Positions 732 to 33,915 of a stretch of 64,000 bases of DNA are shown one piece after another (the stretch's first letter is position 1; every line of letters starts with the position of its first letter). The DNA comes from Sphingomonas sp. LY54. Its GTDB lineage: Bacteria; Pseudomonadota; Alphaproteobacteria; Sphingomonadales; Sphingomonadaceae. The stretch is taken from assembly GCF_035594035.1 (NCBI RefSeq), contig NZ_CP141588.1, forward strand, positions 2,191,501-2,255,500. Direction: 5' to 3'. Below the pieces are notes generated by a model that was given only the letters and a program-made list of their open reading frames with translations, searched no databases and was not told the origin of the DNA. The position numbers were made by a program, and so were the translations under genes.

Positions 732-1976
732 ATGAGCGACACCAGCATATTAGCCAGGGAACTGACGGCGCGCGCCGCGCGCGCCCGCAAGGAGGGTCGG
801 CCGGCAGACGCGGTGAGCGCCGCGCAGGAGGCTGTTGCGGTGGACCCGCAGTCGGCGCCCGCATGGAACATGCTGGGGCTGCTGCAGATGGAGACCGGCG
901 ATCCGAAGGCCGCGGCTGCGAGCTTCAGGCTTGCCTTGAGCCACGATCCCCAGCCGCCGGCCGTCTGGTATAATCTCGCGTGCAGCCTCGGTATCTGCGG
1001 CGAATTCGCTGCCCAATTGGAAAGCCTCGAAGAGGTGCTCTCGCGGGACAATTTCTTCCTTCCAGCCATTCTCTCCAAGGGCGTGGTGCTGAAGAAACTC
1101 GGCCGCGGAGAAGAGGCCTACCAACTGTGCAAATCGGTTCTGGCCGGGGTCGGAGACGACGCCGCTTTCCCCCCGTCCGTTCGCGCCCAGATCCACGAGG
1201 CTCGGGAGATCGTCCGGACCTTCGGCGGGGCCCGCCACCGTCACTATGATGCGGTCCTTGCCGAGGTCGCCTCTGCATATCCGCAGGTGGACCTTTCCCG
1301 TGTGCGCGGCTTCGCCGAGCAGCGCGCCGGACAACGCAAGGTCTATGTGCAGCAACCCACCGCCGGTCACTTCCCCTATCTGCCGGCGATCGAGTTTTTC
1401 GATCGGGCGCTCTTTCCCTGGTTCGAGAATTTGGAGGCGGGAACGGCGGAGATCCGGGCCGAGCTCTTGTCCCTGCTCGTCGATGAGGATCCGAATTTCC
1501 GGCCCTACGTGACATATGCGCCCGGCACGCCGCTCAACCAGTGGGAGGAACTCAACCATTCGCCGCGCTGGAGCGCCTGGTTCTTGTGGGAGAATGGCCA
1601 AAGGAACCACGCCAATTGCGCCCGTTGCCCCCGAACCGCGGCGATCGTCGAGGCGCTACCGATGCTGGACATGCCGGGCAAGGCGCCCACGGTCATGTTC
1701 TCCATCCTTCGGCCGGAAACCAAAATACCCCCTCACACGGGGTCGACCAACGTCCGGACTACCGTTCACCTGCCGCTGATCGTTCCCGAAGGCTGCGGGT
1801 TCCGGGTGGGAGCCGAAACACGGACATGGCGCGAAGGGGAGGCCTGGGCCTTCGACGACACGATCGAGCACGAGGCGTGGAACGACAGCGCCAAGCCGCG
1901 GGCGATCCTCATCCTCGATGCCTGGAATCCGCTACTGAGCGAGGCCGAGCGCGCGGCCGTAAGATTGGTGGGCTGA
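732..1976 (+). CDS. TPR / aspartyl-asparaginyl beta-hydroxylase family protein
   Basis: The N-terminal ~110 residues form TPR-like helical pairs (A.ARA..EGR..DAV, PAWNMLGLLQMETGD). The C-terminal half has the Asp/Asn hydroxylase (PF05118-like) double-stranded helix: PPHTGSTNVR with metal ligand H335, then FDDTIEHEAWN with H380 and a following arginine near 390 for 2-oxoglutarate. Such enzymes hydroxylate Asp/Asn or other side chains using Fe(II) and 2OG. A paralogue with the same architecture lies at 32737-33915. The ATG at 732 makes the N-terminus match that paralogue; a TTG at 696 has a better-placed AAAGGA and would add 12 residues. It opens the receptor/oxygenase region and is cytoplasmic by sequence. 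The substrate is unknown. Confidence 0.8.
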   Translation: MSDTSILARELTARAARARKEGRPADAVSAAQEAVAVDPQSAPAWNMLGLLQMETGDPKAAAASFRLALSHDPQPPAVWYNLACSLGICGEFAAQLESLEEVLSRDNFFLPAILSKGVVLKKLGRGEEAYQLCKSVLAGVGDDAAFPPSVRAQIHEAREIVRTFGGARHRHYDAVLAEVASAYPQVDLSRVRGFAEQRAGQRKVYVQQPTAGHFPYLPAIEFFDRALFPWFENLEAGTAEIRAELLSLLVDEDPNFRPYVTYAPGTPLNQWEELNHSPRWSAWFLWENGQRNHANCARCPRTAAIVEALPMLDMPGKAPTVMFSILRPETKIPPHTGSTNVRTTVHLPLIVPEGCGFRVGAETRTWREGEAWAFDDTIEHEAWNDSAKPRAILILDAWNPLLSEAERAAVRLVG

Positions 1977-1987
1977 GCCTGCCCTGA

Positions 1988-2515
1988 TCAGTTGATCCTG
2001 CGCACGCGGAGGGCGGTTTGGCCGTTGACGTTGGCGAGATAAGATCCAAGCGCGGCGCGCCGGATCACGATTTTGTGCCCCGGCTTTGGATCGATGGGCA
2101 AATCCCGGCTGTCGATCTGCAGCCACCTTGCGCCATCTGCCAGCGTGATCACCCACTTTCCACTTGGGCCGTTGTTGACGGAGCGCACGGTGCTTTCGAC
2201 CTGCGCGACGGCTGCATCCTCGTCCTTATCCCCGAATATGCCGAGGTCGGGGAGGGCGAAGCCGAACAGTGACGATCTCGTCTTGCGGATCTGCTGCCGA
2301 TCCATGACGACGAGATCTTCCCGTTGCACGGCCGCGTCCATAGCTCCCGTTTCCCGGTCGAAGCAGGCGAGGCGCTCTTCCGCCGAGGCGATGGCGCGGC
2401 AATCCAGCAGCCGCGACAGCGCGGCCGGCTGGTCGCGTGGCGGTTGTTGAGCCGCGGCCGCGGCCGGCGCAGTGCAAAGCATCAGAGTGGCGATAAGGGT
2501 TGAGCGCATGCGCAT
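1988..2515 (-). CDS. Exported hypothetical protein with a DCRAI..EERLACFD motif
   Basis: The 175-residue product has a clear signal peptide (MRMRSTLIATLMLC then alanine-rich, ending AAAAQQ). After it comes LLDCRAIAS.EERLACFDRE, a two-cysteine motif common in exported proteobacterial proteins of unknown function, where the cysteines probably form a disulfide. The C-terminal half is beta-rich (GKWVITLADGARWLQID...). The start at 2515 is preceded by GAGG at good spacing; an upstream ATG at 2566 would add an implausible n-region. It is convergent with the hydroxylase gene and divergent from the sulfotransferase-like gene. Nothing in the sequence ties it to either function. Confidence 0.7.
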   Translation of the reverse strand: MRMRSTLIATLMLCTAPAAAAAQQPPRDQPAALSRLLDCRAIASAEERLACFDRETGAMDAAVQREDLVVMDRQQIRKTRSSLFGFALPDLGIFGDKDEDAAVAQVESTVRSVNNGPSGKWVITLADGARWLQIDSRDLPIDPKPGHKIVIRRAALGSYLANVNGQTALRVRRIN

Positions 2516-2650
2516 AAGGACCTCGCTGGACGGACGGGGGATCGTACGGTTGGTCGGCCTATGCATGCAAGCCTCCGTCCGCGGTGCGCTCTTCGGTTAG
2601 ACGGACGCGAGGCGATTGACCTTCGTCGCAGGTCGCGTCAGGCGCGCCCG

Positions 2651-3682
2651 ATGAGCGACAGTTCCGAATTCGAAGAGCGGGCGATGTGGTTTCTTCATCG
2701 CGTCGATCCCGTAGGTCGCAAGCTCCGTTATGTGCATGCCATACCTTCCGCCCTCCGCGCTGCCACATTTCTGGACGGGCGAACGACCTTCTGGGAGGGT
2801 ACGGAAAGGGTCGTCGATTTCGCCCAGGCTCAGCCGAGCGGTACAGGCGGAGGCTCGATCCGCTACATCTTCCACGTGTCGTTCTGCGGGTCGACCCTGC
2901 TCGCGTCCGTCCTGGACGAAGCTTGCGAGGCGTTCGTGCTTAAGGAACCCCAGTGTCTCGTCGACCTGGCCGACTGGAAAAAGACACTGCGACAACATCA
3001 CGCGACCGATCCGGCCTTCGGAGGAATTCTGGATGTGGTGCAAGAAGCTCTTCTGATTCCCGGTCAGGCCACCGTGGTGAAGCCGAGTAATTGGGCGAAT
3101 AACATCGTAGCCGATCTTTGCAGCTCCCGTCGGTCCGCCGAGCGCCTCTTCCTCACGATGGACGCGGAGTCATTCCTCCGCGCCGTCTTTCGCGGAGGGC
3201 GCGATCGGATCGCGTTCACCGCGCGGGTGGCCGGTCATCTCGCAAGTGCCTTTGGCGGAGGACAGGGGCTGGTTGCGCAGGCCATTTCCGAGACCGCCGA
3301 TCCGCTCGGACGCGCCGCTAATCTGTGTGCTCTGACGCACTATCTTCAACTGTCTCTGTTCGAAGCCGCCTGTCCCGACTGGAAGGACTCGGGAAGTCAC
3401 CTTGATTTTGCCGAGATCAGTGGCGATCTCGAAGGCGCCGTTCGGAAGGCCGCTGCGGCGCTCGGCCTCACCCTCTCCGATGCTTTGCTGTTGCGGGCGC
3501 TTGACCGGTGGCAAGAGCGAAACGCCAAGCAGCATCAAGCCGTCTTTTCGAAAGCGGCCCACGCCGAAGCCGACATGATGATCGGGCGCGTTCACGGCAA
3601 ACATATTGCGGACGCCCTCCGATGGGCCGATGGGCTTCAACTGCCAGCCGCGCAGCCCCCGCTGGACCATTTGCCTGTGTGA
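2651..3682 (+). CDS. Sulfotransferase-like P-loop protein
   Basis: The 343-residue protein has FHVSFCGSTLLAS at residues 74-86, which matches the 5'-phosphosulfate-binding loop of PAPS-dependent sulfotransferases (usual form G..RSGTT.L), here with Phe-Cys in place of Arg-Ser. It is followed by LKEPQCLVDLA, the LREP.VL..L element seen in a divergent alphaproteobacterial group of this superfamily. No signal peptide is seen. It lies 197 bases upstream of the first TonB-dependent receptor and reads toward it. Sulfotransferases and sulfotransferase-TPR proteins occur near TonB receptors and 2OG oxygenases in related bacteria. Because the PSB loop is atypical, it could bind another nucleotide or be non-catalytic. 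Confidence 0.6.
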   Translation: MSDSSEFEERAMWFLHRVDPVGRKLRYVHAIPSALRAATFLDGRTTFWEGTERVVDFAQAQPSGTGGGSIRYIFHVSFCGSTLLASVLDEACEAFVLKEPQCLVDLADWKKTLRQHHATDPAFGGILDVVQEALLIPGQATVVKPSNWANNIVADLCSSRRSAERLFLTMDAESFLRAVFRGGRDRIAFTARVAGHLASAFGGGQGLVAQAISETADPLGRAANLCALTHYLQLSLFEAACPDWKDSGSHLDFAEISGDLEGAVRKAAAALGLTLSDALLLRALDRWQERNAKQHQAVFSKAAHAEADMMIGRVHGKHIADALRWADGLQLPAAQPPLDHLPV

Positions 3683-3686
3683 CCTT

Positions 3687-3716
3687 TTTACTACAGGCGA
3701 GTGATAACCCTATAGT
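3687..3716 (+). promoter_or_regulatory. Candidate sigma-70 promoter for the first receptor
   Basis: TTTACT and TATAGT are separated by 18 bases, directly after the sulfotransferase-like gene and about 165 bases before the receptor start. The match to the -35 box is 4 of 6 and to the -10 box 5 of 6. It is a visual match only. Confidence 0.35.
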
Positions 3717-3879
3717 GATTTCACTGGATCGATTGCGTTGCGCCTTGCTGCTGCCCTACCAACCGAACGAAGGCGGCGCTGAAGCTGCTTTTACCGGCGA
3801 AGCGTCGTCGCTCATGGATGAGAACGGCATTTCGCAAAGGGATCGGGTGGGCAGCCGCCCTTACTTTAGGGGACACGCA

Positions 3880-6800
3880 ATGAGATCAACTTTCCGTCAG
3901 CGCCTTTTGGCGTCGACCCTGATTATCGGGGCGTCCGCGTTCGCGGCGCCTGCCTATGCGCAGGACGACCAGAGCGAAACTCCGGTGCAGAGCCAGACCG
4001 AAGCCGATGCGGCCGGTTCGGGCGAGGGCATCGTCATCACCGGTTCGCGCATTCCGCGGCGCGATCTCACCTCCTCCAGCCCGCTCACGGTCGTGCAGGA
4101 CGAAGAGTTCACGCTCTCCGGCGCCGTCAACGTCGAGCAGGTCATCAACACCCTCCCGCAGGTCGTTCCCGGCGCCACGGCGTTCTCGAACAACCCAGGC
4201 GGCGGCGTGGCGACGCTCAATCTTCGCGGTCTCGGCTCGCAGCGCAACCTCGTCTTGGTCAACGGCCGTCGTTACATCTTCTATGATGCCAACCAGGTCA
4301 CCGATCTCAACACGATTCCGCAGTTCCTGATCGAAAGCATCGACGTCGTGACCGGCGGCGCCTCGGCCGTGTACGGTTCCGACGCACTCGCCGGCGTGAC
4401 CAACTTCCGTCTTCGCGGCGATCTCGATGGCCTGATGGCCGGCGGTCAGTACAGCATCACCGGTGAAGGCGACGGTCGCCGCTACAATGCCTATATGGCG
4501 CTCGGCACGCAGTTTGCCGACGGCCGCGGGCATCTTGCGGTGTACGGCGAATATTATAATCGCGGCGACGTTTTCCAGGGCGCTCGCGACTTCTCGCGCT
4601 TCGCACTGGCTGACGGCGACACCAGCCTCATTCCGGGCGGCTCGGCCGGCGTTCCCCAAGGACGCTTCGTCGCTCCGGGCACGATCACGGTCGGCGCTCC
4701 CGGCTCGATCGGTGGCGCCAACCCGAGCTGCGGCGGCACCGGCAATCCGCCCCGGAACGCGGGCTGCTTCGACATCGGCGCCGGGACGGCGTTCCCGGGT
4801 GGCGGCGCCTTCTTCGGCACGCCGGGCGTGGCTCGGCCCTACAATGGCGCTACCGACGCATTCAACTACGCGCCCGACAACTACCTGATGGTCCCGCAGG
4901 AGCGCTGGACGATCGGCGGCTACGGCGAATATGAAGTGTCCGAAGGCATCACCGCTTATGGTGAGGTCGTCTTCATCAACAACCGCGTCGAGAACGAGCT
5001 TGCCGCGACGCCAATCACGCAGAACGTCAACTTCAACCTCAATGCGGCCTGCGCCAACGTTAACGCCGCGACCTGCACCCAGCTCCGGACGATCGCTGCA
5101 AATCAGCAGGCTGCGATCGCCGCCGCTGCTGCCGGTGGTGTGGCGAACCCGTTCCCTGGCTTCACGGCCGGCGCCGGGACCTTCGGCGCCCTCCAGCCGA
5201 CCGAAGTCCGGTTGCAGCTCAACACCCGCGTGAGCCAGATCTCCAACCGTAACGTCGCCGACGACCGGAATGCTTTCCGGACGCTCATCGGTGTTCGCGG
5301 CGATCTGACCGAGTCGCTGACCTACGATGCTTATTATTCGTATGCTCGCACTCGTAATGCCTCGATCCAGGCGGGCAACGTGTCGCGTTCCAACCTGACC
5401 AGGCTGGCCGCGGACGGTACCTGCAACTTCTTCGGCGCGAACCAGCTGAGCGCCGATTGTATCGACGGCATCTCGATCCTCGCGCAGAATACCGACATTT
5501 CCCAGCTCCAGGTTGCGCAGGCCAGCCTTGCCGGCTCGCTCTTCCAGACCCCTTGGGCGACGGATTCGATCGGCTTCGCGGCCGGCGTCGAGTGGCGCAG
5601 CATGGGCGGCCAGTTCATTCCCGACACCGCTCTGGCCTCGGGCGACGTTGCTGGCTTCAACGCCGGCGATCCGACCGAAGGCAAATATGACGTCAAGGAA
5701 GTGTTCGGCGAGCTTCGTCTTCCGCTCGTCCAGGACAACTTCATCCACCGGCTCGAGTTGAGCGCAGCAGCGCGCTACTCGGACTACTCGCTTGAGAACG
5801 TCGGTGGTGTCTGGGCCTACGCGGCAGGTGCCGAATTCGCTCCGGTCAGCGACATCACGTTCCGCGCTCAGTATCAGCGTGCGGTCCGTGCACCGAACGT
5901 CCAGGAACTGTTCGGCGGTCAGTCGGTCGGCTTCCCGGCGGCGACCGATCCGTGCGCACTGGCGTCGGCGGCAACGAACGCGACTGTTCGCGCTCTCTGC
6001 GTCGCCACGGGCGTTCCGTCCTCGAACGTCGGTCAGTCCTTCCTTCAGCCTAACCCGCAGATCGAAGGCACCTTCGGCGGCAATCCGCTGCTGCAGGAAG
6101 AAGTCTCGGACACCTACACCGCTGGTGTGGTCCTCCGTCCGCGCTTCATTCCGCGCCTCAACATCGCAGTCGATTGGTACGATATCACGGTCGACAACGC
6201 GATCGCGGCGGCCGGCGGCGGCGTCGGCGGCGTCCTGAACCTCTGCTACAACGTCATTCAGGACGCGACGAGCCCGCTCTGTCAGGCGATCACGCGCGAC
6301 CAGCAGGGCTCGATCTCGGGCGGCGGTCAGTTCATCGTCCAGGCGAACAACGCGAACCTCGCGCAGCTCTCCACGGAAGGCGTCGACTTCCAGATCGATT
6401 ACAGCCTCCCGCTGGCCTTCGGCCTCGCCGGAGCCGATGAATCGAAGCTGAGCTTCTACTTCCTCGGCAACTACACCCGGTCGAACAACTTCGTGCCGAC
6501 CGTCGGTGTCGACGAAGTGATCGAGTGTGGCGGCCGCTTCGGCAACCAGTGCGGAAACCCGACGCCGAAGTGGAAGTTCGCGAGCCGCGTGTCCTGGCTC
6601 GACGGCCCAGTCACTTCGACTGTCCGCTGGCGCTATGTCGGCAAGACTCGGGACGACGATGATGATACGGATTACATCGTCGAGAACCTGAAGTCCTACA
6701 ACCTGTTCGACCTGGCGTTCTCGTTCAACGTGGGTGACCACCTGACGCTGAACACCGGCGTGAACAACATCTTCAACAAGAAGCCGCAGCTGATTGGCGA

Positions 6801-6885
6801 CAATCAGGAGCAGGCCAATACCTATCCGAGCGTGTACGACGTGCTTGGGCGTGACTTCTTCGTCTCGGCCTCACTTCGCTTCTAA
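3880..6885 (+). CDS. TonB-dependent receptor, large (1001 residues)
   Basis: Outer-membrane active transporter. A signal peptide (cleavage after AYA, residue 27) is followed by a TonB-box-like GIVITGSR at 50-57. The plug domain contains LNLRGLGSQRNLVLVNGRR and VVTGGASAVYGSDALAGVTNF, and a long 22-strand-type barrel ends in the terminal aromatic signature (FFVSASLRF). It belongs to the large receptor group typical of sphingomonads and Caulobacter. The ATG at 3880 follows AGGGGA; reading further upstream would place 124 residues before the signal peptide. A strong terminator follows at 6900. It is paralogous to the receptor at 11809. No N-terminal signalling (STN) domain is present, so sigma/anti-sigma control is not indicated. 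The ligand is unknown. Confidence 0.93.
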   Translation: MRSTFRQRLLASTLIIGASAFAAPAYAQDDQSETPVQSQTEADAAGSGEGIVITGSRIPRRDLTSSSPLTVVQDEEFTLSGAVNVEQVINTLPQVVPGATAFSNNPGGGVATLNLRGLGSQRNLVLVNGRRYIFYDANQVTDLNTIPQFLIESIDVVTGGASAVYGSDALAGVTNFRLRGDLDGLMAGGQYSITGEGDGRRYNAYMALGTQFADGRGHLAVYGEYYNRGDVFQGARDFSRFALADGDTSLIPGGSAGVPQGRFVAPGTITVGAPGSIGGANPSCGGTGNPPRNAGCFDIGAGTAFPGGGAFFGTPGVARPYNGATDAFNYAPDNYLMVPQERWTIGGYGEYEVSEGITAYGEVVFINNRVENELAATPITQNVNFNLNAACANVNAATCTQLRTIAANQQAAIAAAAAGGVANPFPGFTAGAGTFGALQPTEVRLQLNTRVSQISNRNVADDRNAFRTLIGVRGDLTESLTYDAYYSYARTRNASIQAGNVSRSNLTRLAADGTCNFFGANQLSADCIDGISILAQNTDISQLQVAQASLAGSLFQTPWATDSIGFAAGVEWRSMGGQFIPDTALASGDVAGFNAGDPTEGKYDVKEVFGELRLPLVQDNFIHRLELSAAARYSDYSLENVGGVWAYAAGAEFAPVSDITFRAQYQRAVRAPNVQELFGGQSVGFPAATDPCALASAATNATVRALCVATGVPSSNVGQSFLQPNPQIEGTFGGNPLLQEEVSDTYTAGVVLRPRFIPRLNIAVDWYDITVDNAIAAAGGGVGGVLNLCYNVIQDATSPLCQAITRDQQGSISGGGQFIVQANNANLAQLSTEGVDFQIDYSLPLAFGLAGADESKLSFYFLGNYTRSNNFVPTVGVDEVIECGGRFGNQCGNPTPKWKFASRVSWLDGPVTSTVRWRYVGKTRDDDDDTDYIVENLKSYNLFDLAFSFNVGDHLTLNTGVNNIFNKKPQLIGDNQEQANTYPSVYDVLGRDFFVSASLRF

Positions 6886-6899
6886 CGCGACGACTATCG

Positions 6900-6934
6900 A
6901 AGGGCGGCAGACATTGTCTGCCGCCCTTTTTTTT
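6900..6934 (+). terminator. Rho-independent terminator after receptor 1
   Basis: A 14-bp perfect stem (AAGGGCGGCAGACA with its complement) with a minimal loop is followed by eight thymines, 15 bases after the receptor stop codon. Confidence 0.92.
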
Positions 6935-7004
6935 GTGCGCCGTTCATGGCAGGGCCTCGGGGAGGCACGAGGGCCAGGATCGCGATGGAAGGCGCATTGC
7001 CGAG

Positions 7005-7739
7005 ATGAGTAGTCAGTCGTATCGGCTGAACCCGAAGCTGGATGCCGACGCTCTGCGCACGGCTTTTGCGAGCACTTCGCGGCTTCATGTTCCCGAGTTT
7101 CTCGAAGCCGCCGACGCCGAGCGCCTTTATGCGTTCCTGCGGGGCAGCGCCGCCTGGCGCCTGGTGATCAACCAGGAGAGCAAGCTGTTCGAGCTCGATC
7201 GCGCAGCGCAGGCGGCAATGACGCCCGAAGCCCGCCAGGAGCTCGACCGCGCGATCCATGCGTCGGCCCGGCACAATTTCCAATATTGCTACGAAACGAT
7301 CCGTGTCCCGGACTCGGAGGAGGAGCGCGGCGCGCAGGCAGACGAGTTGAGCCGCTTCGCCTCCTTCATGTCTTCGCCCGAGGTCGCGGGCTTCCTGCGC
7401 CAGGTGACGGGCCGCAACGAGATCGCATTCGCCGACGCGCAGGCGACCGCTTACGGTCTGGGTCATTTCCTGACCGCGCATGACGACGAAGTCGCCGGCA
7501 AGCAGCGTATCGCCGCTTACGTGTTCAACCTCACGCCGAAATGGCGGATTGACTGGGGTGGGCTGCTGGCCTTCCACGATGCGCGCGGTCATGTCGCGGA
7601 GGCGTACACCCCGTCCTTCAACGCGCTGAACCTGTTCAGCGTGCCGCAGCCCCACAGCGTCACCATGGTAGCCCCGTTCGCCGCGTCGCGACGTTATTCG
7701 GTCACCGGGTGGCTCCGTAGCCGGCAGGGACAGGCCTGA
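7005..7739 (+). CDS. 2OG-Fe(II) oxygenase (prolyl-4-hydroxylase-like fold), first copy
   Basis: The 244-residue enzyme shows the HxD...H...R facial triad: H159 and D161 in LTAHDDE, H217 in VPQPHSV, and an arginine near 229-230 for 2-oxoglutarate. Between them lie WRIDWGGLLAFHD and FNALNLFSVP, typical of Ofd1/Tpa1-type oxygenases. Expected chemistry is Fe(II)/2OG-dependent hydroxylation of a protein, peptide or small molecule. It lies just after the receptor terminator, so it needs its own promoter or readthrough. It is a sister of the next gene (similar length and motif spacing), probably an old tandem duplication. No SD is close to the ATG; the start was chosen because it matches the sister protein's N-terminus. 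Confidence 0.85.
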   Translation: MSSQSYRLNPKLDADALRTAFASTSRLHVPEFLEAADAERLYAFLRGSAAWRLVINQESKLFELDRAAQAAMTPEARQELDRAIHASARHNFQYCYETIRVPDSEEERGAQADELSRFASFMSSPEVAGFLRQVTGRNEIAFADAQATAYGLGHFLTAHDDEVAGKQRIAAYVFNLTPKWRIDWGGLLAFHDARGHVAEAYTPSFNALNLFSVPQPHSVTMVAPFAASRRYSVTGWLRSRQGQA

Positions 7740-7826
7740 GCCGCCAAGCGGGATCGCCCTGTCTCTCCCACACCGGCGAATTTGCTGCTAATCCTGCCCA
7801 GACCAAGCCTTGAGGAGCGCATAGCG

Positions 7827-8564
7827 TTGTCGGAAGTCATTCCCCTGTTTGAGCTGAACCCCGCGCTTGATGTCGCGGCGGCGGCGAGCAGGTTCACCCG
7901 CGACGGCCGGACACAATTGCGCGACTTCCTCGATCCGCGCGCCGCGCGAACGATCCAGCATGTCCTCGCTGCGGAAACTCCGTGGGGTCTCGCCTGGCGG
8001 GCAGGAGACGATGGCCCGCACATGCTTCGCCGCCAGGAGCTCGCGCAGACCAGCGCGGAACAGAAAAGCGAATTATGGCGGCGGATTTCCGGAGCCGTGA
8101 GCGGCCAGGACTATGCCTTTCTCTATTCGCAATATCCGATGCTCAACGCCTATCTGGAGCGCTGGGGCGAGCATCCGGCGCTGGATCTGCTGGTCGAGCA
8201 TATTAATGCCGAACCGCTTCTCTCGCTCGTCCGCGAAATCACCGGCATGCCTCAACTCGTGAAGGCCGATGCCCAGGCGACGCTCTACGCGCCGAACCAG
8301 TTCCTGTCCCTGCACGACGACAGTCACGTCGCGGAAGGATGGCAGGTCGCCTATGTGATGAACTTCTGCTCCGAGGACTGGAGGCCGGATTGGGGCGGCT
8401 ATCTGATGTTCTACGACGAGGAGGGCGACGTCATCGGGGGTTTCAAGCCACGCTTTAATTCCCTGAATATGTTCCGCGTGCCGCAGAAACACAACGTAAC
8501 CTACGTGCCGCCCTTCGCTCCGGTCGGGCGCTTTGCGATTACCGGCTGGTTCCGGGACCGCTGA
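7827..8564 (+). CDS. 2OG-Fe(II) oxygenase (prolyl-4-hydroxylase-like fold), second copy
   Basis: The 245-residue paralogue of the preceding oxygenase has ligands H163 and D165 (SLHDDSH), H222 (VPQKHNV) and R235. The core is WRPDWGGYLMFYD and FNSLNMFRVP. A TTG start at 7827 is preferred: GAGGAG lies nine bases upstream and the resulting N-terminus (MSEVIPLFELNPALD) aligns with the first copy (MSSQSYRLNPKLD). An in-frame TTG at 7782 lacks a comparable site. Its 3' end overlaps the convergent methyltransferase by 26 bases. Retention of all active-site residues in both copies suggests two related substrates or sites rather than a dead duplicate. Confidence 0.85.
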   Translation: MSEVIPLFELNPALDVAAAASRFTRDGRTQLRDFLDPRAARTIQHVLAAETPWGLAWRAGDDGPHMLRRQELAQTSAEQKSELWRRISGAVSGQDYAFLYSQYPMLNAYLERWGEHPALDLLVEHINAEPLLSLVREITGMPQLVKADAQATLYAPNQFLSLHDDSHVAEGWQVAYVMNFCSEDWRPDWGGYLMFYDEEGDVIGGFKPRFNSLNMFRVPQKHNVTYVPPFAPVGRFAITGWFRDR

Positions 8565-9480
8565 CCGCGCCGTCGAGAACGCCGCGCAGGAGCCAGGCAA
8601 GCGGCTGTCCCGTCGACCGTTCCGGAACGGTGGATATTACGATCTCGCCAAATCCGGCCTGAACCAGCTGCCGCGCGGTCTCTTCGATGCGGGATCGGTC
8701 GTGCGCTGCGCGGCCGAGCAACGCGATCCGCTCTGCTTCGCCGCGCGCGCTCCGCTCGAGTTGGTCGAGCAAGGCGCCGGCACCGCCCGGCGTCCGTTGG
8801 CCGCTCTCGAGCCGCTGCAGGATGCCCGTCACGATCTCGGCCGCGACGCTCTGGGCCGGATAACGCTGTCGGGCTTCGTCGATGCCGGCACGGAACGAAG
8901 CCGGGATCGGCAGGCCCAGTGCCATTCCGTGGGTCGCGAATGTCTTCGCCCGCTCCAGATACCCGCCCGGCATTAGCGGCCACAGCAATGCCTCTCGCCT
9001 CGCCAGATTGTGCGAGACAATCGGACTTGCGCTGTGGTGAATCAAGAAAAGCAGGTGGCCTCCGGGCTTCACCACCCGGGCAATCTCGATGCTGGTCGCT
9101 TCGGCATCGCCATATTCATATCCGAACTGGCTAACCGCGGCTTCGAAGCGGTGCGCCGGAAAAGGCAGCTTCCGCATGTCGATTCCCGACAGCAATTTCG
9201 TGCCTTTTGGCGACGGAGGCAGGGACGGCGCTGAATCGATGCCGGTCAGCTTCAGGTCGCTGCGCGTCCCCGCCATCCACGCCAATACGATCCCGCCGCC
9301 CGTCCCGACATCGAGCACGCTCGCGCCTGTGGGGAGCTTCCGGGCAAAGCCTTCCCAAACGGCCCGCTGCGCCGCGTCCACCACATCGCTTCGTTGCGGC
9401 AGGCATCCGGCACCTTTCCGTCCGCCGCCGTCGGTCCAAAAATGCTGCCACGCATTAGGCTTCTCTCGCTCGCGGCTCAT
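8539..9480 (-). CDS. Class I SAM-dependent methyltransferase
   Basis: The 313-residue protein has methyltransferase motif I VLDVGTGGGIVLAWMA (about residues 55-70), an acidic strand LTGIDSAP, and VVKPGGHLLFLIHH as the post-motif III element, within a Methyltransf_11/25-like fold. It is translationally coupled to the TPR/2OG oxygenase upstream, sharing ATGA at 9477-9480, so the two are one operon. The acceptor is not predictable; the extended C-terminal helical half (residues ~190-313) is unlike UbiE or other well-known small-molecule methyltransferases that I recognise. Coupling to an oxygenase suggests sequential modification of the same target. Confidence 0.75.
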   Translation of the reverse strand: MSREREKPNAWQHFWTDGGGRKGAGCLPQRSDVVDAAQRAVWEGFARKLPTGASVLDVGTGGGIVLAWMAGTRSDLKLTGIDSAPSLPPSPKGTKLLSGIDMRKLPFPAHRFEAAVSQFGYEYGDAEATSIEIARVVKPGGHLLFLIHHSASPIVSHNLARREALLWPLMPGGYLERAKTFATHGMALGLPIPASFRAGIDEARQRYPAQSVAAEIVTGILQRLESGQRTPGGAGALLDQLERSARGEAERIALLGRAAHDRSRIEETARQLVQAGFGEIVISTVPERSTGQPLAWLLRGVLDGAVSGPGTSR

Positions 9481-11240
9481 AGGGCGATATCGAAGGCTGC
9501 GGTCAGCCGCTCGCCGGCGGCGAACGGCCGCGTGCCGTGGTAGAGATAGCTCGGGAACAGCGCCAAATGACCCGGCACAGGCCGGATACGGGACAGCGGC
9601 TCCAACGTCAGATCAAGATTGGCGGGCGGGCCGCCCACCTCCAGCCAGCCTTCGAGAGGCTGCGCTTCTGCAGGCACCACGAGGTAGCAGGCCGAGGAAA
9701 GCAGACCGTTCGGGTGAAAATGCGAGACGTGGAAGCCGCCGCCAATCAGCCGAACCGACCAGGAGCCGGCGAAACGCGGCGTCTGCCCGCAATGCCGGCG
9801 GAGCGGGTGTAGCGGGTCGCGGGGGGCCAGCCGTTCCCAATATTGCCCCACCGACTCCGTGACAGCCTTTTTCAGCATCAGGATTTCGGGCTCTTCGCGT
9901 GCGAAGAGGCTGCCGCGCGTCTGGGTGCCGCCCCGAACGGACTGGCCGATCGGGTGCGATCGGGTGCGGTGAAGGCTGCGCAAGCGGTCCGCGATCGCAT
10001 CGACTTGCGCCGCGTCGAGCGCGAGAGGCGTCGCGGTCACGAGTTCGCTGGCGTTCAGCCAATCTGCCCGAGAATCGCCGACCAACCGCCACACCAGTCC
10101 GGTCACGGCCCAGGCGCCGATATCAGCGGGATTCTCTTCGCGCGCCTGGTCGGCGAAACGGGCCGCTCCCTCATAGTCGCCGATACGCAGTCGGTGCCGC
10201 GCCTCCAGCGCGCTTCGCCCCGGGAGGGTGTCGGGGAGTCTATCGAAAAGCTGTGTCGCACGCTCGATCTGGCCGGCTTCCGATGCCTGAAACGCCTCCA
10301 GCAACGACAGTTCGTCGTCTGCTGCCAATATGGATCGCGCTTTCAAGGCGGCATCGGCTGCTTCCGCGGGAAGATCCGCCGCTGCAAGCGTGCCGGCAAG
10401 GGTCGTCCACAAGGCGCGATTGTGGGGATTGGAGGCTAAGGCCTGCTCCATATCGCGGGTAAAATCGCGGCCCTCGCCGGCTTCCCAGCGCATGCGCGCC
10501 AGAGTCGAATGGCCTATAGACCACGTCGGATTCGCTCGCACCGCGGCGGCGAGCAGCGCGATCCCCTCCGGATCGCCTTCTGCCTCGAGCGCCTGCGCAA
10601 GACCAAGCAGAATCTCGTCATCTTCCGGGCGCAGCGCCCGGGCCCGGCGGTAGAAGGTGACGGCGTCTTCCTCGCCCCGCTCCAGCGCAACGCGTGCCCG
10701 CCCATGGAGAGCCGAAAGGCGCGCGGGTTCCACCGCCAGCGCCGCGTCATAGGCCGCGGCGGCTTCCGCCCGCCGATCGAGCGCGCGCAAGACGCTCCCC
10801 CGCGCGGCCAGGAATCTAGCTTCGCGCCGACTCGCCAGCAAATGGTCGAGGTCGGCAAGCGCTTCGTCGAGGCGACCGAGCTTCTGAAGCACCAGGGCCC
10901 GGTTGTAGCGCGCCTCCGTGAAATGGGGTTGGGCTGCAAGCGCCCGCTCATAATGCGCGACGGCATCGTCGAGGCGGCCGATATCTCCGAGCAGGTTCGC
11001 CAGGTTGTTGTTGATCTGCGGATCGGCCGGAGCGAGCCGGTGCGCCCGCTCCAGGCTCGCCTTCGCAGCGTCGATCACCCCGCGCTTCTTCTCGACGAGG
11101 CCGAGCAGATGAAGAATGGCCGGATGGTCGCCGGCGAGCCGCTGTACCTGGACGAGGTCGGCTCGAGCCGTTTCTAACTGGCCGGCCGCGAATGCGCGCT
11201 CGGCCCGCGCGAAGAGTGCGTTGATGTCGATTCCGCCCAT
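9477..11240 (-). CDS. TPR-repeat protein with C-terminal 2OG-Fe(II) oxygenase domain
   Basis: 587 residues. Residues ~1-430 are tandem TPRs (LHLLGLVEKKRGVIDAAK, NNNLANLLGDIGRLDDA, ARYNRALVLQKLGRLDEA and others). The last ~110 residues contain SWSVRLIGGGFHVSHFHPNG, GWLEVGGPP and FPSYLYHGTRPF, a pattern of the 2OG-FeII_Oxy_5-type (PF13759-like) domain with the H.H, HGT and basic residues expected for metal and 2OG binding. TPRs usually recruit a protein or peptide partner, so a macromolecular substrate is more likely than a metabolite. The ATG at 11240 removes a basic, non-TPR extension. It is transcribed away from the second receptor and coupled to the methyltransferase. Confidence 0.82.
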   Translation of the reverse strand: MGGIDINALFARAERAFAAGQLETARADLVQVQRLAGDHPAILHLLGLVEKKRGVIDAAKASLERAHRLAPADPQINNNLANLLGDIGRLDDAVAHYERALAAQPHFTEARYNRALVLQKLGRLDEALADLDHLLASRREARFLAARGSVLRALDRRAEAAAAYDAALAVEPARLSALHGRARVALERGEEDAVTFYRRARALRPEDDEILLGLAQALEAEGDPEGIALLAAAVRANPTWSIGHSTLARMRWEAGEGRDFTRDMEQALASNPHNRALWTTLAGTLAAADLPAEAADAALKARSILAADDELSLLEAFQASEAGQIERATQLFDRLPDTLPGRSALEARHRLRIGDYEGAARFADQAREENPADIGAWAVTGLVWRLVGDSRADWLNASELVTATPLALDAAQVDAIADRLRSLHRTRSHPIGQSVRGGTQTRGSLFAREEPEILMLKKAVTESVGQYWERLAPRDPLHPLRRHCGQTPRFAGSWSVRLIGGGFHVSHFHPNGLLSSACYLVVPAEAQPLEGWLEVGGPPANLDLTLEPLSRIRPVPGHLALFPSYLYHGTRPFAAGERLTAAFDIAL

Positions 11241-11808
11241 GCGTCGTGAATGGCCGGTGCCCGGTCGCCTGTCCAGCCGCGGCGCCCGGCGGATCGCTCG
11301 TCGCCTGGCGCACTCTCGGATTTGCAGCATGTCGCCCCCCGCCTTTTCCTTCGCCCGAGCTTGCCGGTCGGCCGCGGACCTTGATGGTCCGTGCGCAGGG
11401 AAGACCGACGGAAAGCTCTGCTCGATCCCGGCGAATCTGCTCCCCGGTCAGCCAATCGGACGATGCTTGGAAGGCGGCGTCCCGGGTGAGCAGCCGCTAC
11501 GCGCCGCGAGCCCCAACGGCACTCCCCAAAAAAGTCACTCTGCTCGGTGCGACGGATGCCCGGCGATTTGAGTCCCATATGGCTGTAAGTATTTGCTTCA
11601 TCGGGGCAATTTCGAGTCAACCTGACGAAACCCACATTATCGAAAACTGTGGCAAAGGGGCCACATGTAACTTTCGTTATATGACATGTCGGTTACCCGC
11701 AGATTGCTGCGGCTCCGCGGCGCGGCCTAGGCCTTGCCCCGTCGCGCGATCATCGAGCCGGCCCGGCTGGGGCGCGCGTGAGCAAGTGTCATAAGGAAAC
11801 TTAAGTAC
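11241..11808. other. 568-base divergent intergenic region between the TPR oxygenase and receptor 2
   Basis: This is the longest non-coding stretch of the window. I see no convincing gene in it. It must hold promoters for both flanking genes. Notable structure is the inverted repeat TGTGGC-N6-GCCACA at 11648-11665 and two ACATGT palindromes at 11663 and 11684, 21 bases apart. A small imperfect palindrome (GGACCTTGATGGTCC) lies near 11379. Confidence 0.6.
11648..11689. promoter_or_regulatory. Candidate operator: nested inverted repeats upstream of receptor 2
   Basis: TGTGGC AAAGGG GCCACA (11648-11665) overlaps the first of two ACATGT palindromes whose starts are 21 bases apart, i.e. two helical turns. 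Between them lies TTATAT, a possible -10 element. The layout fits a dimeric regulator site about 120 bases before the receptor start, but no known consensus was matched. Confidence 0.3.
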
Positions 11809-14697
11809 ATGACTATCCGCGTCCGTCAGCAGTTGCTGGCGTCCACTCTTCTGCTCGGCATGGCCGCCTATGGCGCGCCGGCCTTCGCCCAGGCAGAAAC
11901 CGAAGCCCCCGCCGCCGAGGCGAATGAAGAAATCGTCGTCACGGGTTCGCGCATTGCGCGTCCGGACATCGACTCCAACGTCCCCGTTGCTGTCATCGGC
12001 GCCGCCGAGCTGCAGCAGGACGCCGCAGTCAACATCCAGGACACGCTCAACGAACTGCCTCAGGTCGGCGTCGGCAACAGCCGCACCAACTCGAACTTCC
12101 TCACGTCGGGAACCGGCGTTTCCACGATCAACCTGCGCAACCTGGGTTCGAGCCGCACGCTCACCCTGGTAAACGGCCGCCGCTTCATCGCGGGCTTCGC
12201 GGGCGATTCCGCGGTCGACGTAAACAACATCCCGACCGATTTCATCGAGCGCGTCGAGATCGTCACCGGCGGTGCCTCGGCCGTCTACGGTTCGGAAGCC
12301 ATTGCCGGCGTCGTCAACTTCATCATGAAGGACAAGTTCGAAGGCATCCAGCTCCGCAGCCAGTACAACATCACCGAAAAGGGCGATAACGCGCGCTACT
12401 TCGGGAGCCTGACTGCCGGCACCACCTTCGGCGCCGACGACCGCGGGTCGTTCCTCGGCAACATCTCGTACGACAAGGACGAGGGCCTCTATTCGCGCGA
12501 TCGCGCCATGTCGTCGCAGGATTGCGGCGTCATCAGCGGCCGCGTCACCTGCGGCCCGGCCGCTTACAGCGCATTCTCGCCGCAGGGCCAGTTCATCCTG
12601 ACCCGTCCCGACGGCACGCTCGACGAGGCCGGCGGCACCTACACGTTCGACCGCAATAACAACCTGGTCACCGGCTATCCGGCTGGCTCGGGCTTCAACC
12701 GTAACGCGGTCCGCCGCATCGCGGTGCCGGTCGAGCGCATCCTCGTCAGCACGATCGCCAAGTACGAACTGACGGACAATATCGAACTGTTCGCCGAAGG
12801 CACCTATGCCAACGTCAAGTCGAACGCTGCTCTCGAAGCGTCCGCTCTTGGCTTCGGTCGCGTCTCGAATCCCGACGGTCCGGCCTACAGCCTCGACAAC
12901 CCGTTCGTCCCGGCCGCCCTGCGCGCGGTCATCGACGCTCGCAATAGCGACGCGGACGCGACCAACGATGTCACGAGCATCAGCGCGCGCCGCCGCTTCA
13001 ACGAAGTGTTCGACCGCAGCAACAAGGCCGAGCGCAATACCTACCGTATCGCGACGGGTATCCGCGGCGACATCGCGAACGACTGGGATTACGAGCTCAG
13101 CTACGTCTACGGTTACATGAAGGACTCGAACTCGTCCGAGACCATCGACAAGAACCGGCTCGCCAACGCGATGGACGCGGAAGTCGCCCCGGACGGCACG
13201 ATCCGCTGCCGCAGCGCCGCGGCCCGCGCCGAAGGCTGCGCTCCGATCAACCTGTTCGGCTTCAACACCGCCAGCCCTGAGGCCTCGGCCTACGTTCAGG
13301 CGGTGGTACCGAAGAGCCAGGTCATCACGAACGAGCAGCAGATCCTCTCGGCTTCGGTGTCTAACAGCAGCCTGTTCTCGCTCCCGGGCGGGGATGTCGG
13401 CGTCGCTTTCGGCGCTGAATACCGCAAGGAAAAGAGCGTCGATGACCTCGACATCCTGACCAACACGGGCGGAAATACCGGCAACCTGATTCCGGACACC
13501 CGCGGTCAGTTCGATGTCTGGGAAGTCTTTGCTGAAACCAATGTGCCGCTGCTCAGCGACATGCGTTTCGTCAATTATCTCGGCCTCACCGGTGCGGTCC
13601 GTTATTCGGACTATTCGACCATCGGCAGCGTCGTCAGCTGGAACGCTGGCGCCGAGTATGAGCCGTTCAAGGGCCTTCGCTTCCGCGGTGTCTATGCCCA
13701 GGCCAACCGTGCTCCGAACATCTCCGAGCTCTTCTCGGCGCCGTCGGAGACCTTCGCGTCGGTCAGCGATCCCTGCAACGGCGTGACTGCCGCCAGCACC
13801 GGCGTCTATGACGCAGCTTGCCGGAGCATCCCGCAGGTTGCCGCCGCGATCGCGGCAAACGGTTCGTTCGCTTACACGTTGGGCCAGACTCAGGGCATCA
13901 ACGGCTTTGTGGGCGGCAACCAGAACCTGAAGGAAGAAACCGCGAAGACGCTCACCCTTGGTGCTGTCTTCACGCCTCGCTTCCTGCCGGGCTTCAGCCT
14001 GTCGGCCGACTATTTCGACATCACGGTCGACGACGCGATCAACACTATGGGCCGTCAGCTCTCGATCCAGCAGTGCCTGCTGACTTCCAGTCCGATCTTC
14101 TGCGACCAGATCCTCCGGAATTCGCAGACCGGCCTGATCGAGACGGTGAACGGGCAGCTGATCAACGTCGCTCAGATGAAGACCAAGGGCGTCGACTTCG
14201 CGCTCCGCTACCAGCGTCCGCTGGGGCTGATGGAGGACGATCGTCTCGGTCTGACCCTAAACTACACCTACCTGATCGACCACAAGACGCAGGCTAACCC
14301 GTCGGCTCCTGTGATCGATTACGCCGGTGAAGCCGGCCTGTCGGAGCACAAGGCAACTGGCCGCGTGACCTACAAGACCGGAGCCTTCACCGGCAGCTGG
14401 CAGGTCAACTACATGAGCGATGCGGTTTCGAGCGCGATCTTCACGCACGCAAACCCGGACATCGTGGCGATGAACAAGATCGACTCGTACTTCTACCACG
14501 ATCTCCAGTTCCGCTGGGACGTGGGCGAAGACCGTCGCTTCGGCTTCTATGCCGGCGTCGACAACGTCTTCGACAAGAAGCCGCCGTTCCTGCCGAGCCC
14601 GCCCTTCAACAACTCGGTGACCGGTACGGAAACGCAGGCAGACGTCTACGATCCGTTCGGCCGCCGCTTCTATGCGGGTGTGCAGGTCCGCTTCTAA
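11809..14697 (+). CDS. TonB-dependent receptor, large (962 residues), second copy
   Basis: Outer-membrane transporter with a signal peptide ending GAPAFA (residue 27) and a TonB-box-like EIVVTGSR at 41-48. The plug contains STINLRNLGSSRTLTLVNGRR and VTGGASAVYGSEAIAGVVNF, and the barrel ends FYAGVQVRF. AAGGAAA lies nine bases before the ATG. The signal peptide shares QLLASTLLLG with receptor 1 and the two are clearly paralogous. It is followed by a strong terminator at 14723. It lies directly divergent from the TPR oxygenase/methyltransferase operon, so co-regulation across the 568-base gap is plausible. The ligand is unknown and no STN domain is present. Confidence 0.93.
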   Translation: MTIRVRQQLLASTLLLGMAAYGAPAFAQAETEAPAAEANEEIVVTGSRIARPDIDSNVPVAVIGAAELQQDAAVNIQDTLNELPQVGVGNSRTNSNFLTSGTGVSTINLRNLGSSRTLTLVNGRRFIAGFAGDSAVDVNNIPTDFIERVEIVTGGASAVYGSEAIAGVVNFIMKDKFEGIQLRSQYNITEKGDNARYFGSLTAGTTFGADDRGSFLGNISYDKDEGLYSRDRAMSSQDCGVISGRVTCGPAAYSAFSPQGQFILTRPDGTLDEAGGTYTFDRNNNLVTGYPAGSGFNRNAVRRIAVPVERILVSTIAKYELTDNIELFAEGTYANVKSNAALEASALGFGRVSNPDGPAYSLDNPFVPAALRAVIDARNSDADATNDVTSISARRRFNEVFDRSNKAERNTYRIATGIRGDIANDWDYELSYVYGYMKDSNSSETIDKNRLANAMDAEVAPDGTIRCRSAAARAEGCAPINLFGFNTASPEASAYVQAVVPKSQVITNEQQILSASVSNSSLFSLPGGDVGVAFGAEYRKEKSVDDLDILTNTGGNTGNLIPDTRGQFDVWEVFAETNVPLLSDMRFVNYLGLTGAVRYSDYSTIGSVVSWNAGAEYEPFKGLRFRGVYAQANRAPNISELFSAPSETFASVSDPCNGVTAASTGVYDAACRSIPQVAAAIAANGSFAYTLGQTQGINGFVGGNQNLKEETAKTLTLGAVFTPRFLPGFSLSADYFDITVDDAINTMGRQLSIQQCLLTSSPIFCDQILRNSQTGLIETVNGQLINVAQMKTKGVDFALRYQRPLGLMEDDRLGLTLNYTYLIDHKTQANPSAPVIDYAGEAGLSEHKATGRVTYKTGAFTGSWQVNYMSDAVSSAIFTHANPDIVAMNKIDSYFYHDLQFRWDVGEDRRFGFYAGVDNVFDKKPPFLPSPPFNNSVTGTETQADVYDPFGRRFYAGVQVRF

Positions 14698-14787: not shown

Positions 14788-17364
<2,577 letters not shown>

Positions 17365-17391
17365 AGCTGCCCCTGTTGCTGTTCAGGCACC

Positions 17392-17419
17392 ATGTAGTGT
17401 TGCTGTTGGGCAACACAAG
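17392..17419 (-). promoter_or_regulatory. Candidate heat-shock (sigma-32) promoter of clpB overlapping an inverted repeat
   Basis: On the minus strand CTTG, an 18-base spacer and CTACAT lie about 30 bases before the clpB start, resembling the alphaproteobacterial sigma-32 pattern (CTTG-N17/18-CYTAT). The spacer is an almost perfect hairpin: GTGTTGC and GCAACAC (17397-17403 and 17410-17416) around six bases. The -10 match is imperfect. Confidence 0.35.
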
Positions 17420-17478
17420 ATGGCCTCACATATCGCCCCCCCAGTAACATCGGACGCGTGGGCGATGATCCCTGCGTT

Positions 17479-32736: not shown

Positions 32737-33915
32737 ATGCAGGGTTCGTCGGTCGAGGAATTGGGACGCGCTGGCATGGAAGCGCTCGAGCGGGGCGATG
32801 CGGCCGCGGCGCGTCGCTCGTTCGAGCAGATCGTCGCGTCCGGACAGGCGCCGGCCCCGGCCTGGATCCTACTCGCCCAGGCCTGCCGGCAGGCGGGCGA
32901 CGCGGAAGCCGAGCGCGAGGCGATCGACCAGGCGCTGGCTGTAGACCCGCGCAATCTGCGCGCCATGATCATGAAGGGCGACTGGTTCAGCCGCCGCGAC
33001 GACATCCGCGCCGCGACCTCCTTCTATCAGTTCGCGCTGAAGCTCGTCCCTGCCGGCGCGGCGCTGCCGCCGGGGCTCGCCGCCGATCTTGCGCGTGCCG
33101 AAGCGGCCGTCGCAGACTTCAGCCGCCGCTACGAAAATCACCTGACCGACCGGCTCGCCGAGGCCGGCTTCTCCGGGGACAGCGTCGCCCCGCGCGTCCA
33201 GGAATCGATCGATATCCTGCTCGGCAACAAGCAGCTCTATTTCCAGCAGCCGACCAGTTATTTCTTCCCCGGCCTCCCGCAGATCCAGTTCTACGAACGC
33301 GACCAGTTCCCGTGGGTCGAAACCGTCGAGCAAGCGGTCCCCGCGATGCAGGCCGAACTCGCCGCGCTGATCGAAGAGCGGGAGGCGGCGTTCAAGCCTT
33401 ATGTCGAGGTGCCGACCGACCGCGCCTTCAACCAGTCGCATGCGATGCTGAACAACCCCGACTGGTCGGCGCTCTATCTGTGGAAAAACGGGGCGCTGGT
33501 CGAGGAGAATGCGTCGCGCTGCCCGCGCACGATGGAAGCATTGGCCGCGGCGCCGATCCCGCACATCCGGACGCGCTCGCCGATGGTGCTCTTCTCCAGG
33601 CTTAGGCCGGGCACGCACATTCCCCCGCATAACGGCATGCTCAATACCCGGCTGATCTGCCATATCCCGCTCGTCGTCCCGCCTGTCTGCCGGCTGCGCG
33701 TCGGCAACGAGATCCGGCCGGTCGAGGAGGGGAAGGCGATGATCTTCGACGACAGCATCGAGCATGAGGCCTGGAACGACAGCGACCAGACGCGAATCGT
33801 CTTGCTGTTCGAGGTCTGGCGTCCGGAGATCAGCGAGGAGGAGCGGCGGGCCCTCATCGCCCTGTTCGAAGCGATCAACGATTATGGCGGGGCGGCCGAG
33901 ACGCCATCTATCTGA
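32737..33915 (+). CDS. TPR / aspartyl-asparaginyl beta-hydroxylase family protein, second copy
   Basis: The 392-residue protein has the same architecture as the gene at 732: N-terminal TPR-like helices (residues ~5-75), then a central segment with KQLYFQQPTSYFFPGLPQIQ, matching KVYVQQPTAGHFPYLPAIE in the first copy, and the hydroxylase core with H298 in PPHNGMLNTR, H343 in FDDSIEHEAWN and R353. It is therefore an Fe(II)/2OG enzyme with probable macromolecular recognition through the TPRs. It lies far from the receptors, in a housekeeping setting after galE, so this subfamily does not require a receptor neighbour. The ATG follows ACAGGG. Confidence 0.82.
   Translation: MQGSSVEELGRAGMEALERGDAAAARRSFEQIVASGQAPAPAWILLAQACRQAGDAEAEREAIDQALAVDPRNLRAMIMKGDWFSRRDDIRAATSFYQFALKLVPAGAALPPGLAADLARAEAAVADFSRRYENHLTDRLAEAGFSGDSVAPRVQESIDILLGNKQLYFQQPTSYFFPGLPQIQFYERDQFPWVETVEQAVPAMQAELAALIEEREAAFKPYVEVPTDRAFNQSHAMLNNPDWSALYLWKNGALVEENASRCPRTMEALAAAPIPHIRTRSPMVLFSRLRPGTHIPPHNGMLNTRLICHIPLVVPPVCRLRVGNEIRPVEEGKAMIFDDSIEHEAWNDSDQTRIVLLFEVWRPEISEEERRALIALFEAINDYGGAAETPSI

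Follow-up and report, generated by a model that had tools for sequence, protein, structure and literature searches.

Recurrent linkage of TonB-dependent receptors with oxygenases and a sulfotransferase-fold protein, seen from an island of Sphingomonas sp. LY54

The 64,000-nucleotide stretch of Sphingomonas sp. LY54 DNA analysed here (NZ_CP141588.1, positions 2,191,501 to 2,255,500; hereafter the window) carries at positions 732-14697 an island in which two TonB-dependent receptors (TBDRs) are encoded together with 2-oxoglutarate (2OG)-type oxygenases, a protein of predicted sulfotransferase fold and a methyltransferase. Homologues of these enzymes lie beside receptors of the same type in many other genomes, and this recurrent receptor-enzyme pairing is real and general. 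The island is a receptor-oxygenase pairing unlike the known ones in combining several enzyme chemistries at one receptor class. The enzymes may act on the receptor itself, a reading that we hold tentatively and weigh below against its rivals. Gene placement and domain searches bore out the gene set that a first-pass annotation had read at 732-14697; its eight genes were right, and what it left out was gene B and the recurring xseA-clpB slot in which the island sits. The genes of the island are as follows.

Gene A, 732-1976, + strand: TPR and Asp_Arg_Hydrox domain (PF05118, 162 bits), ASPH-like; signal peptide absent by eye
Gene B, 1988-2566, - strand: small protein, secreted as judged by eye from its signal peptide; N-terminus VasI-like, two Cys conserved
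Gene C, about 2651-3682 (start not certain), + strand: P-loop protein of divergent, predicted sulfotransferase fold, without Pfam match
R1, about 3880-6885, + strand: TBDR of ~1000 amino acids (PF07715 and PF00593), signal peptide by eye
Gene E, 6933-7739 (likely start 7005), + strand: 2OG-Fe(II) oxygenase (PF13661/PF13640; PF13661 77.5 bits)
Gene F, 7782-8564, + strand: 2OG-Fe(II) oxygenase (PF13661/PF13640; PF13661 65.5 bits), paralogue of E (33%)
Gene G, 8539-9480, - strand: methyltransferase (PF08241)
Gene H, 9477 to about 11240 (likely start) or 11330, - strand: TPR and PF13759 2OG-Fe(II) oxygenase (57 bits)
R2, 11809-14697, + strand: second TBDR (PF07715 and PF00593)

The plug (PF07715) and beta-barrel (PF00593) domains are both over cut-off in R1 and R2, and G and H overlap by 4 bases. 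The host genome is complete (3.28 Mb), and among named organisms Sphingosinicella sp. YJ22 carries the closest relative of the island (locus L113, which is one locus with the congener piece L013).

A search of 84,980 species genomes with an A alignment gave at least 586 relatives, and the best-scoring 80 loci were kept. A was called in 76 of the 80, four being missed by the gene caller; 27 of the 76 were dropped because their flank was shorter than 8 kb, so that 49 were counted, and a 100-base piece (L099) was also dropped. Of these 49 loci, 42 carry an R-type TBDR at most 8 kb from A, and in 37 the distance is at most 3 kb. The same 49 loci held B in 23, C in 23, a TPR-sulfotransferase (TS) in 19 and H in 10, and B is a recurrent partner of the receptor. 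The gene caller misses real genes (H, for example, was called in 10 of 16 receptor-bearing pieces), and counts made from it are lower bounds.

The linkage was also recovered from queries other than A. H matched at E 1e-30 or better in at least 149 of 298 genomes of the family, and 20 places were taken at even steps of the listing for these genomes, with a query separate from that of A. An R-type receptor was present in 16 of the 20 pieces, always within 3.4 kb of H and in 15 of them within 1.5 kb; two of the four pieces without a receptor were contigs of 3.7 and 12 kb. For C, 39 pieces were sampled and the six in which C was not labelled were dropped; of the remaining 33, 19 had a receptor at most 8 kb from C. 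As a control, 20 arbitrary 17.2-kb pieces from 20 genomes, hand-picked at round coordinates, were scored with R-type tblastn queries; none held an R-type receptor, and a profile search gave one weak partial receptor match at the edge of a piece (L209). The density of TBDRs in the LY54 genome itself (30 in 3.28 Mb) predicts some TBDR in about one in six such pieces, and 0/20 is possibly low by luck; 42/49 is far above both the control and this expectation. A Fisher test of 42/49 against 0/20 gave 8e-12, uncorrected for relatedness. The outcome that the first-pass annotation had named as refuting, a scattering of homologues without receptor linkage, was not what these searches gave, and the core claim that receptors and oxygenases are linked held well beyond this genome.

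The enzymes, although of unrelated families, were also found close to each other. Among genomes with both members of a pair, the two lay within 5 kb in 44/65 for A-C, 23/49 for A-H and 9/60 for C-H, where 0.3-0.5 is expected; coordinates were drawn from 150 A and 150 H matches among those listed and from all 148 C matches. In the congener piece L013 the order of genes is ClpB-C-E-F-H-G-S-R1-B-A (S being a Sel1-P4H protein), unlike the order in the window, and G is kept with H and R there and in L121, L221 and L222. Sphingobium indicum BiD32 (L172), one of the named Sphingobium and Sphingomonas isolates among the loci, has the compact set B-R-C-A. Of 18 loci whose titles name Gammaproteobacteria, Steroidobacteraceae or Rheinheimera, 16 have both A and a receptor in the retrieved piece. 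Several TS genes often accompany them, and pairs of TIGR02466-like oxygenases or plain PF13469 sulfotransferases are present in some of these loci. By clustering, TIGR02466-like oxygenases are present in 10 A loci; three of the proteins were tested by profile and all scored below the family cut-off. A search of plasmid records gave twelve stretches from A, H, R1 and E matches and no C match. The Pseudoalteromonas plasmid records NZ_CP022523 and NZ_CP074588 contain places matching H and R1 ~1.3 kb apart, and one locus (L101) contains A without a receptor nearby. In a class-wide sample of 190 genomes, six had an H match at E 1e-20 and two had S, too few for statistics.

Two genes outside the island enter the comparisons.

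ClpB, 14788-17364, - strand: adjoins the island; context and not a proposed member; a frequent slot neighbour in Sphingomonadales
Gene K, 32776-33915, + strand: second TPR-AspH, ~18 kb beyond R2; the third PF05118 place in the genome

K is 36% identical to A. It adjoins receptor R and C in loci L074, L093 and L098 and stands inside the island in some other genomes. Per residue, A, E, F, G and H have lower codon scores than the two receptors and ClpB, and the gene caller missed C; these features may reflect low expression or foreign origin.

Catalytic residues are conserved in the oxygenases. In E/F, H183-x-D185, H241 and R254 are each kept in 33 or 34 of 34 aligned rows, and in H the residues H507, H509, H568 and R578 are each kept in 24 or 25 of 26. 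H335 and H380 of A are invariant in 20/20 aligned sequences. The first-pass annotation had described the metal ligands as intact in all four oxygenases; the conserved residues in A, E/F and H agree with this, with the amendment that H lacks the classical HxD and that A belongs to the ASPH type, in which two His serve without an Asp. A aligned to human ASPH chains with E 2.8e-33 and resembles human ASPH in its catalytic domain, the TPR part before it and the conserved His pair; it differs in being bacterial and in having no signal peptide by eye. EGF-like domains are substrates of ASPH. Judged by the PF05118 domain after the TPR and by the His pair, A is an ASPH-like TPR aspartyl/asparaginyl hydroxylase by sequence, and it may hydroxylate Asp/Asn of a polypeptide.

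The predicted structure of C (pLDDT, the predicted local distance difference test score, 88.7) was used for a fold search, and 49 of the 50 matches listed were sulfotransferases or their domains, counting in the rows of Teg12/Teg14, which we take to be sulfotransferases; the remaining one was adenylate kinase. The modelled fold is like that of the tyrosylprotein sulfotransferases (TPST1/2). The C of the window has no Pfam sulfotransferase match, and PF13469 matched 4 of 27 members of its family with a best E of 6.7e-5, so that the earlier description of C as sulfotransferase-like is carried by the predicted fold and weakly by the sequence. The canonical 5'-phosphosulfate-binding loop is R/K-S-G-T; C has a variant of it, preceded by H75, and S81, T82, E99 and K144 are invariant in 27 rows, the row of L113 having been dropped because its coordinates held a stop. 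In B, C56 and C68 are invariant in a 27-sequence alignment, and its VasI match is weak and below the cut-off.

We next consider the receptors. R2 is not sister to R1 in the receptor tree. The presence of A, C, TS, E, G, B and K is clustered on this tree, below all 200 shuffles in each case, to which near-copies contribute. With ClpB taken into account, the distances of A and R remain correlated (partial r 0.37, p 0.007, 26 loci). In the R1 clade, E or H accompanies the receptor at all 12 distinct loci with at least 45% identity to R1, usually inside the retrieved piece, but for L066 and L067 beyond its edge, where H is 1.4 kb away; the 12 loci correspond to 13 rows, L113 and L013 being one locus, and six of them came from the H query, so that H is present there by selection. 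The LY54 genome has 30 TBDR places (29 over cut-off), two PF13759 and three PF05118 places. Nine 19-kb pieces around its other receptors (L022-L030) gave one receptor-oxygenase pair (L027), five R-type receptors without an island family and three pieces without an R-type label. In L027, the 630-649 kb piece, a receptor is followed 79 bases on by a Sel1-repeat P4H-type oxygenase (6799-11020 for the pair), and a sister of this receptor in Blastomonas natatoria (L156) also adjoins a Sel1-repeat P4H-type oxygenase. Two further relatives of the L027 oxygenase in the LY54 genome are at least 20 kb from TBDR places.

No leader-type precursor of a ribosomally synthesised and post-translationally modified peptide was found in the window, nor such a conserved short open reading frame (ORF) in the island, in line with the first-pass statement that no precursor peptide is visible. 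Among the 25 largest short-ORF clusters listed (up to six members each), those common to the window are 474-674 beside xseA, the overlapping 547-654, and 17361-17450 beyond clpB. Elsewhere, a small class II microcin-like peptide with a double-glycine leader is encoded directly beside an E-type oxygenase in L016 (6765-6986, +), L111 (3516-3698, +) and L233 (G298 C1:80802-80963), and the three peptides have their start in common. L111 also carries an ABC transporter with a C39-type peptidase domain, together with genes for HlyD and for outer-membrane efflux. These three pairs are a candidate family of oxygenase-modified microcins, and the three adjacencies suggest peptides as possible substrates of E-type enzymes. 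A small secreted Cys protein family, outside the window's listed short ORFs, is located near A or R in L074 (8032-8298, +) and 18 other loci. In L062, L063, L064 and L068, C and/or E homologues are near a ~650-amino-acid membrane protein, FtsH-like by its start, rather than beside a receptor.

Receptor-oxygenase pairs are known from CciT-CciO and its relatives PiuA-PiuC and Fiu-YbiX, in which a TBDR gene likewise adjoins a gene for a cytosolic 2OG-Fe(II) oxygenase. The window differs in combining TPR-AspH, TPR-PF13759 and PF13661-type enzymes with a TPST-like protein and a methyltransferase; none of the nine island proteins matches the PKHD/YbiX type (PRK05467), and neither R1 nor R2 attains the cut-off of any named NCBIfam model. 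A PKHD/YbiX-type cluster is present in six other A loci (L116, L141, L151, L160, L170 and L187; confirmed by profile for L116 and L160). BrvH-type tryptophan halogenases also occur in a TBDR context. On a Catenovulum plasmid (L105, 6006-11684), a TBDR, a TPR-PF13759 oxygenase and a tryptophan halogenase stand in a row inside a sugar-utilisation locus, which resembles the BrvH-type TBDR/halogenase loci, whereas the island of the window has no halogenase among its genes. The imported sugar is an unlikely halogenase substrate, and we therefore count this locus in favour of a protein target. In the text of the BrvH paper the words TonB and receptor do not occur (PMC5945002). Judged by titles and the starts of abstracts, we found no literature on TPR-AspH or TPR-sulfotransferase islands at TonB receptors.

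How could such enzymes work with a receptor? By eye, none of the enzymes shows an evident signal peptide, and their substrate would therefore have to pass through the cytosol. TPR matches are present in A, H and TS, and S has a weak Sel1 match; together with the likeness of A to ASPH and of C to TPST, these features point to polypeptides. The 40 most frequent neighbour clusters of the A loci, inspected by eye from the protein starts, show no conspicuous importer, catabolic set or assembly line, and with the repeat domains and the absence of evident signal peptides this makes us lean towards a protein target. Since the receptor and, in many loci, B are the recurring elements, we propose that one of them is modified before export, B being the less likely target. 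One or more R-type TBDRs would be encoded together with dedicated protein-modifying enzymes, which would covalently modify the newly synthesised receptor in the cytosol, several of them perhaps holding the polypeptide through their TPR. The chemistries would comprise AspH-type and other 2OG-dependent hydroxylation, sulfation by C (by TPR-sulfotransferases elsewhere) and possibly methylation by G, all preceding export and insertion into the outer membrane. The modification of the newly made R-type receptor would then tune its ligand binding, gating or exposure; we regard this as a reasonable possibility that falls somewhat short of probable. More speculatively, the cytoplasmic relatives of the animal enzymes ASPH and TPST may form a receptor-tailoring system that decorates import receptors with an interchangeable set of modifiers for each receptor lineage, altering ligand binding or recognition by phages and bacteriocins.

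Several observations weigh against modification of the receptor. In seven of the 49 A loci the 8 kb around A are free of R-type receptors, and only three of the ten closest C homologues (>130 bits) have a receptor near. The linked receptors are not one clade, which 19 changes on the tree rule out, and the presence of H and S is not clearly clustered on it. A search for a private mark of linkage failed, as 76 linked and 15 unlinked receptors share their conserved columns, with nine weak differences; the R1 clade differs from four sister receptors in 25 specific columns, which are scattered and do not add up to an obvious target motif. The receptors of L106 and L107, 39-41% identical to R1, have no island enzyme nearby, and none was found near the R1-related receptors of L106-L110 and L112. 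An ABC permease cluster is present in three A loci and another inner-membrane protein in five, and no modified residue was seen in this analysis of genes. In Caulobacter, where the function of the receptor CciT needs the cytosolic oxygenase CciO, CciT is still made without CciO, and the authors of the study list ligand or inhibitor models (PMC12004947).

An alternative is that the enzymes make or alter a small molecule, such as a self-made hydroxylated or sulfated metallophore or peptide, which the receptor takes up, a model also put forward for CciT-CciO and PiuA-PiuC. This alternative is a strong competitor because CciT function depends on CciO while the protein itself does not, and in their available parts the CciT-CciO papers propose substrate synthesis, oxidation or inhibitor removal and do not raise modification of the receptor itself (PMC12004947, PMC12004943). 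The six A loci with the PKHD/YbiX-type enzyme, which is of the CciO kind, are in its favour. So is the family of A: PF05118 also holds lipid hydroxylases, and A scores 101 bits against the OlsC profile, a value far under the cut-off of 450. The repeat-bearing enzymes and the TPST-like fold point instead to polypeptides, and no assembly-line or importer family stood out in the inspection by eye, made without a profile search, of the neighbour clusters. On balance we consider the small-molecule explanation rather unlikely, though to be taken seriously.

In another alternative, the enzymes modify a small secreted peptide or protein that the receptor retrieves or senses. The E-type enzymes beside double-glycine-leader peptides, the small secreted Cys protein of 19 loci and the secreted, recurrent B argue for it, but the window holds no leader-type peptide and its conserved short ORFs lie on the xseA side and beyond clpB; we regard a secreted target as improbable. 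Finally, the genes may be neighbours only by ancestry. The stretch from the xseA side to clpB is a frequent site of the island in Sphingomonadales (27 of the 80 A loci have the ClpB cluster, and about 20 have genes of the xseA/purD side, with names taken from the L103 annotation), and part of the linkage therefore reflects a shared slot. Such hitch-hiking leaves unexplained the 16 of 18 gammaproteobacterial loci in which the same families are together, their co-occurrence on plasmid records and in another order in the congener, and the H-receptor linkage recovered from a separate query; it is already disfavoured and, in our judgement, very improbable.

If the enzymes do modify the receptor, receptor-linked hydroxylation, sulfation or methylation would add a new level of regulation to nutrient uptake in widespread Proteobacteria, and possibly also to the entry of phages and bacteriocins. 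The linkage bears on the question, published in the CciT study, of why a gene for a cytosolic oxygenase stays adjacent to receptors such as CciT, PiuA and Fiu (PMC12004947), and the presence of several enzyme chemistries at one receptor class narrows the possible answers for receptor-oxygenase pairing. Proof of receptor modification would make the island categorically new; otherwise it is a variant of receptor-oxygenase pairing.

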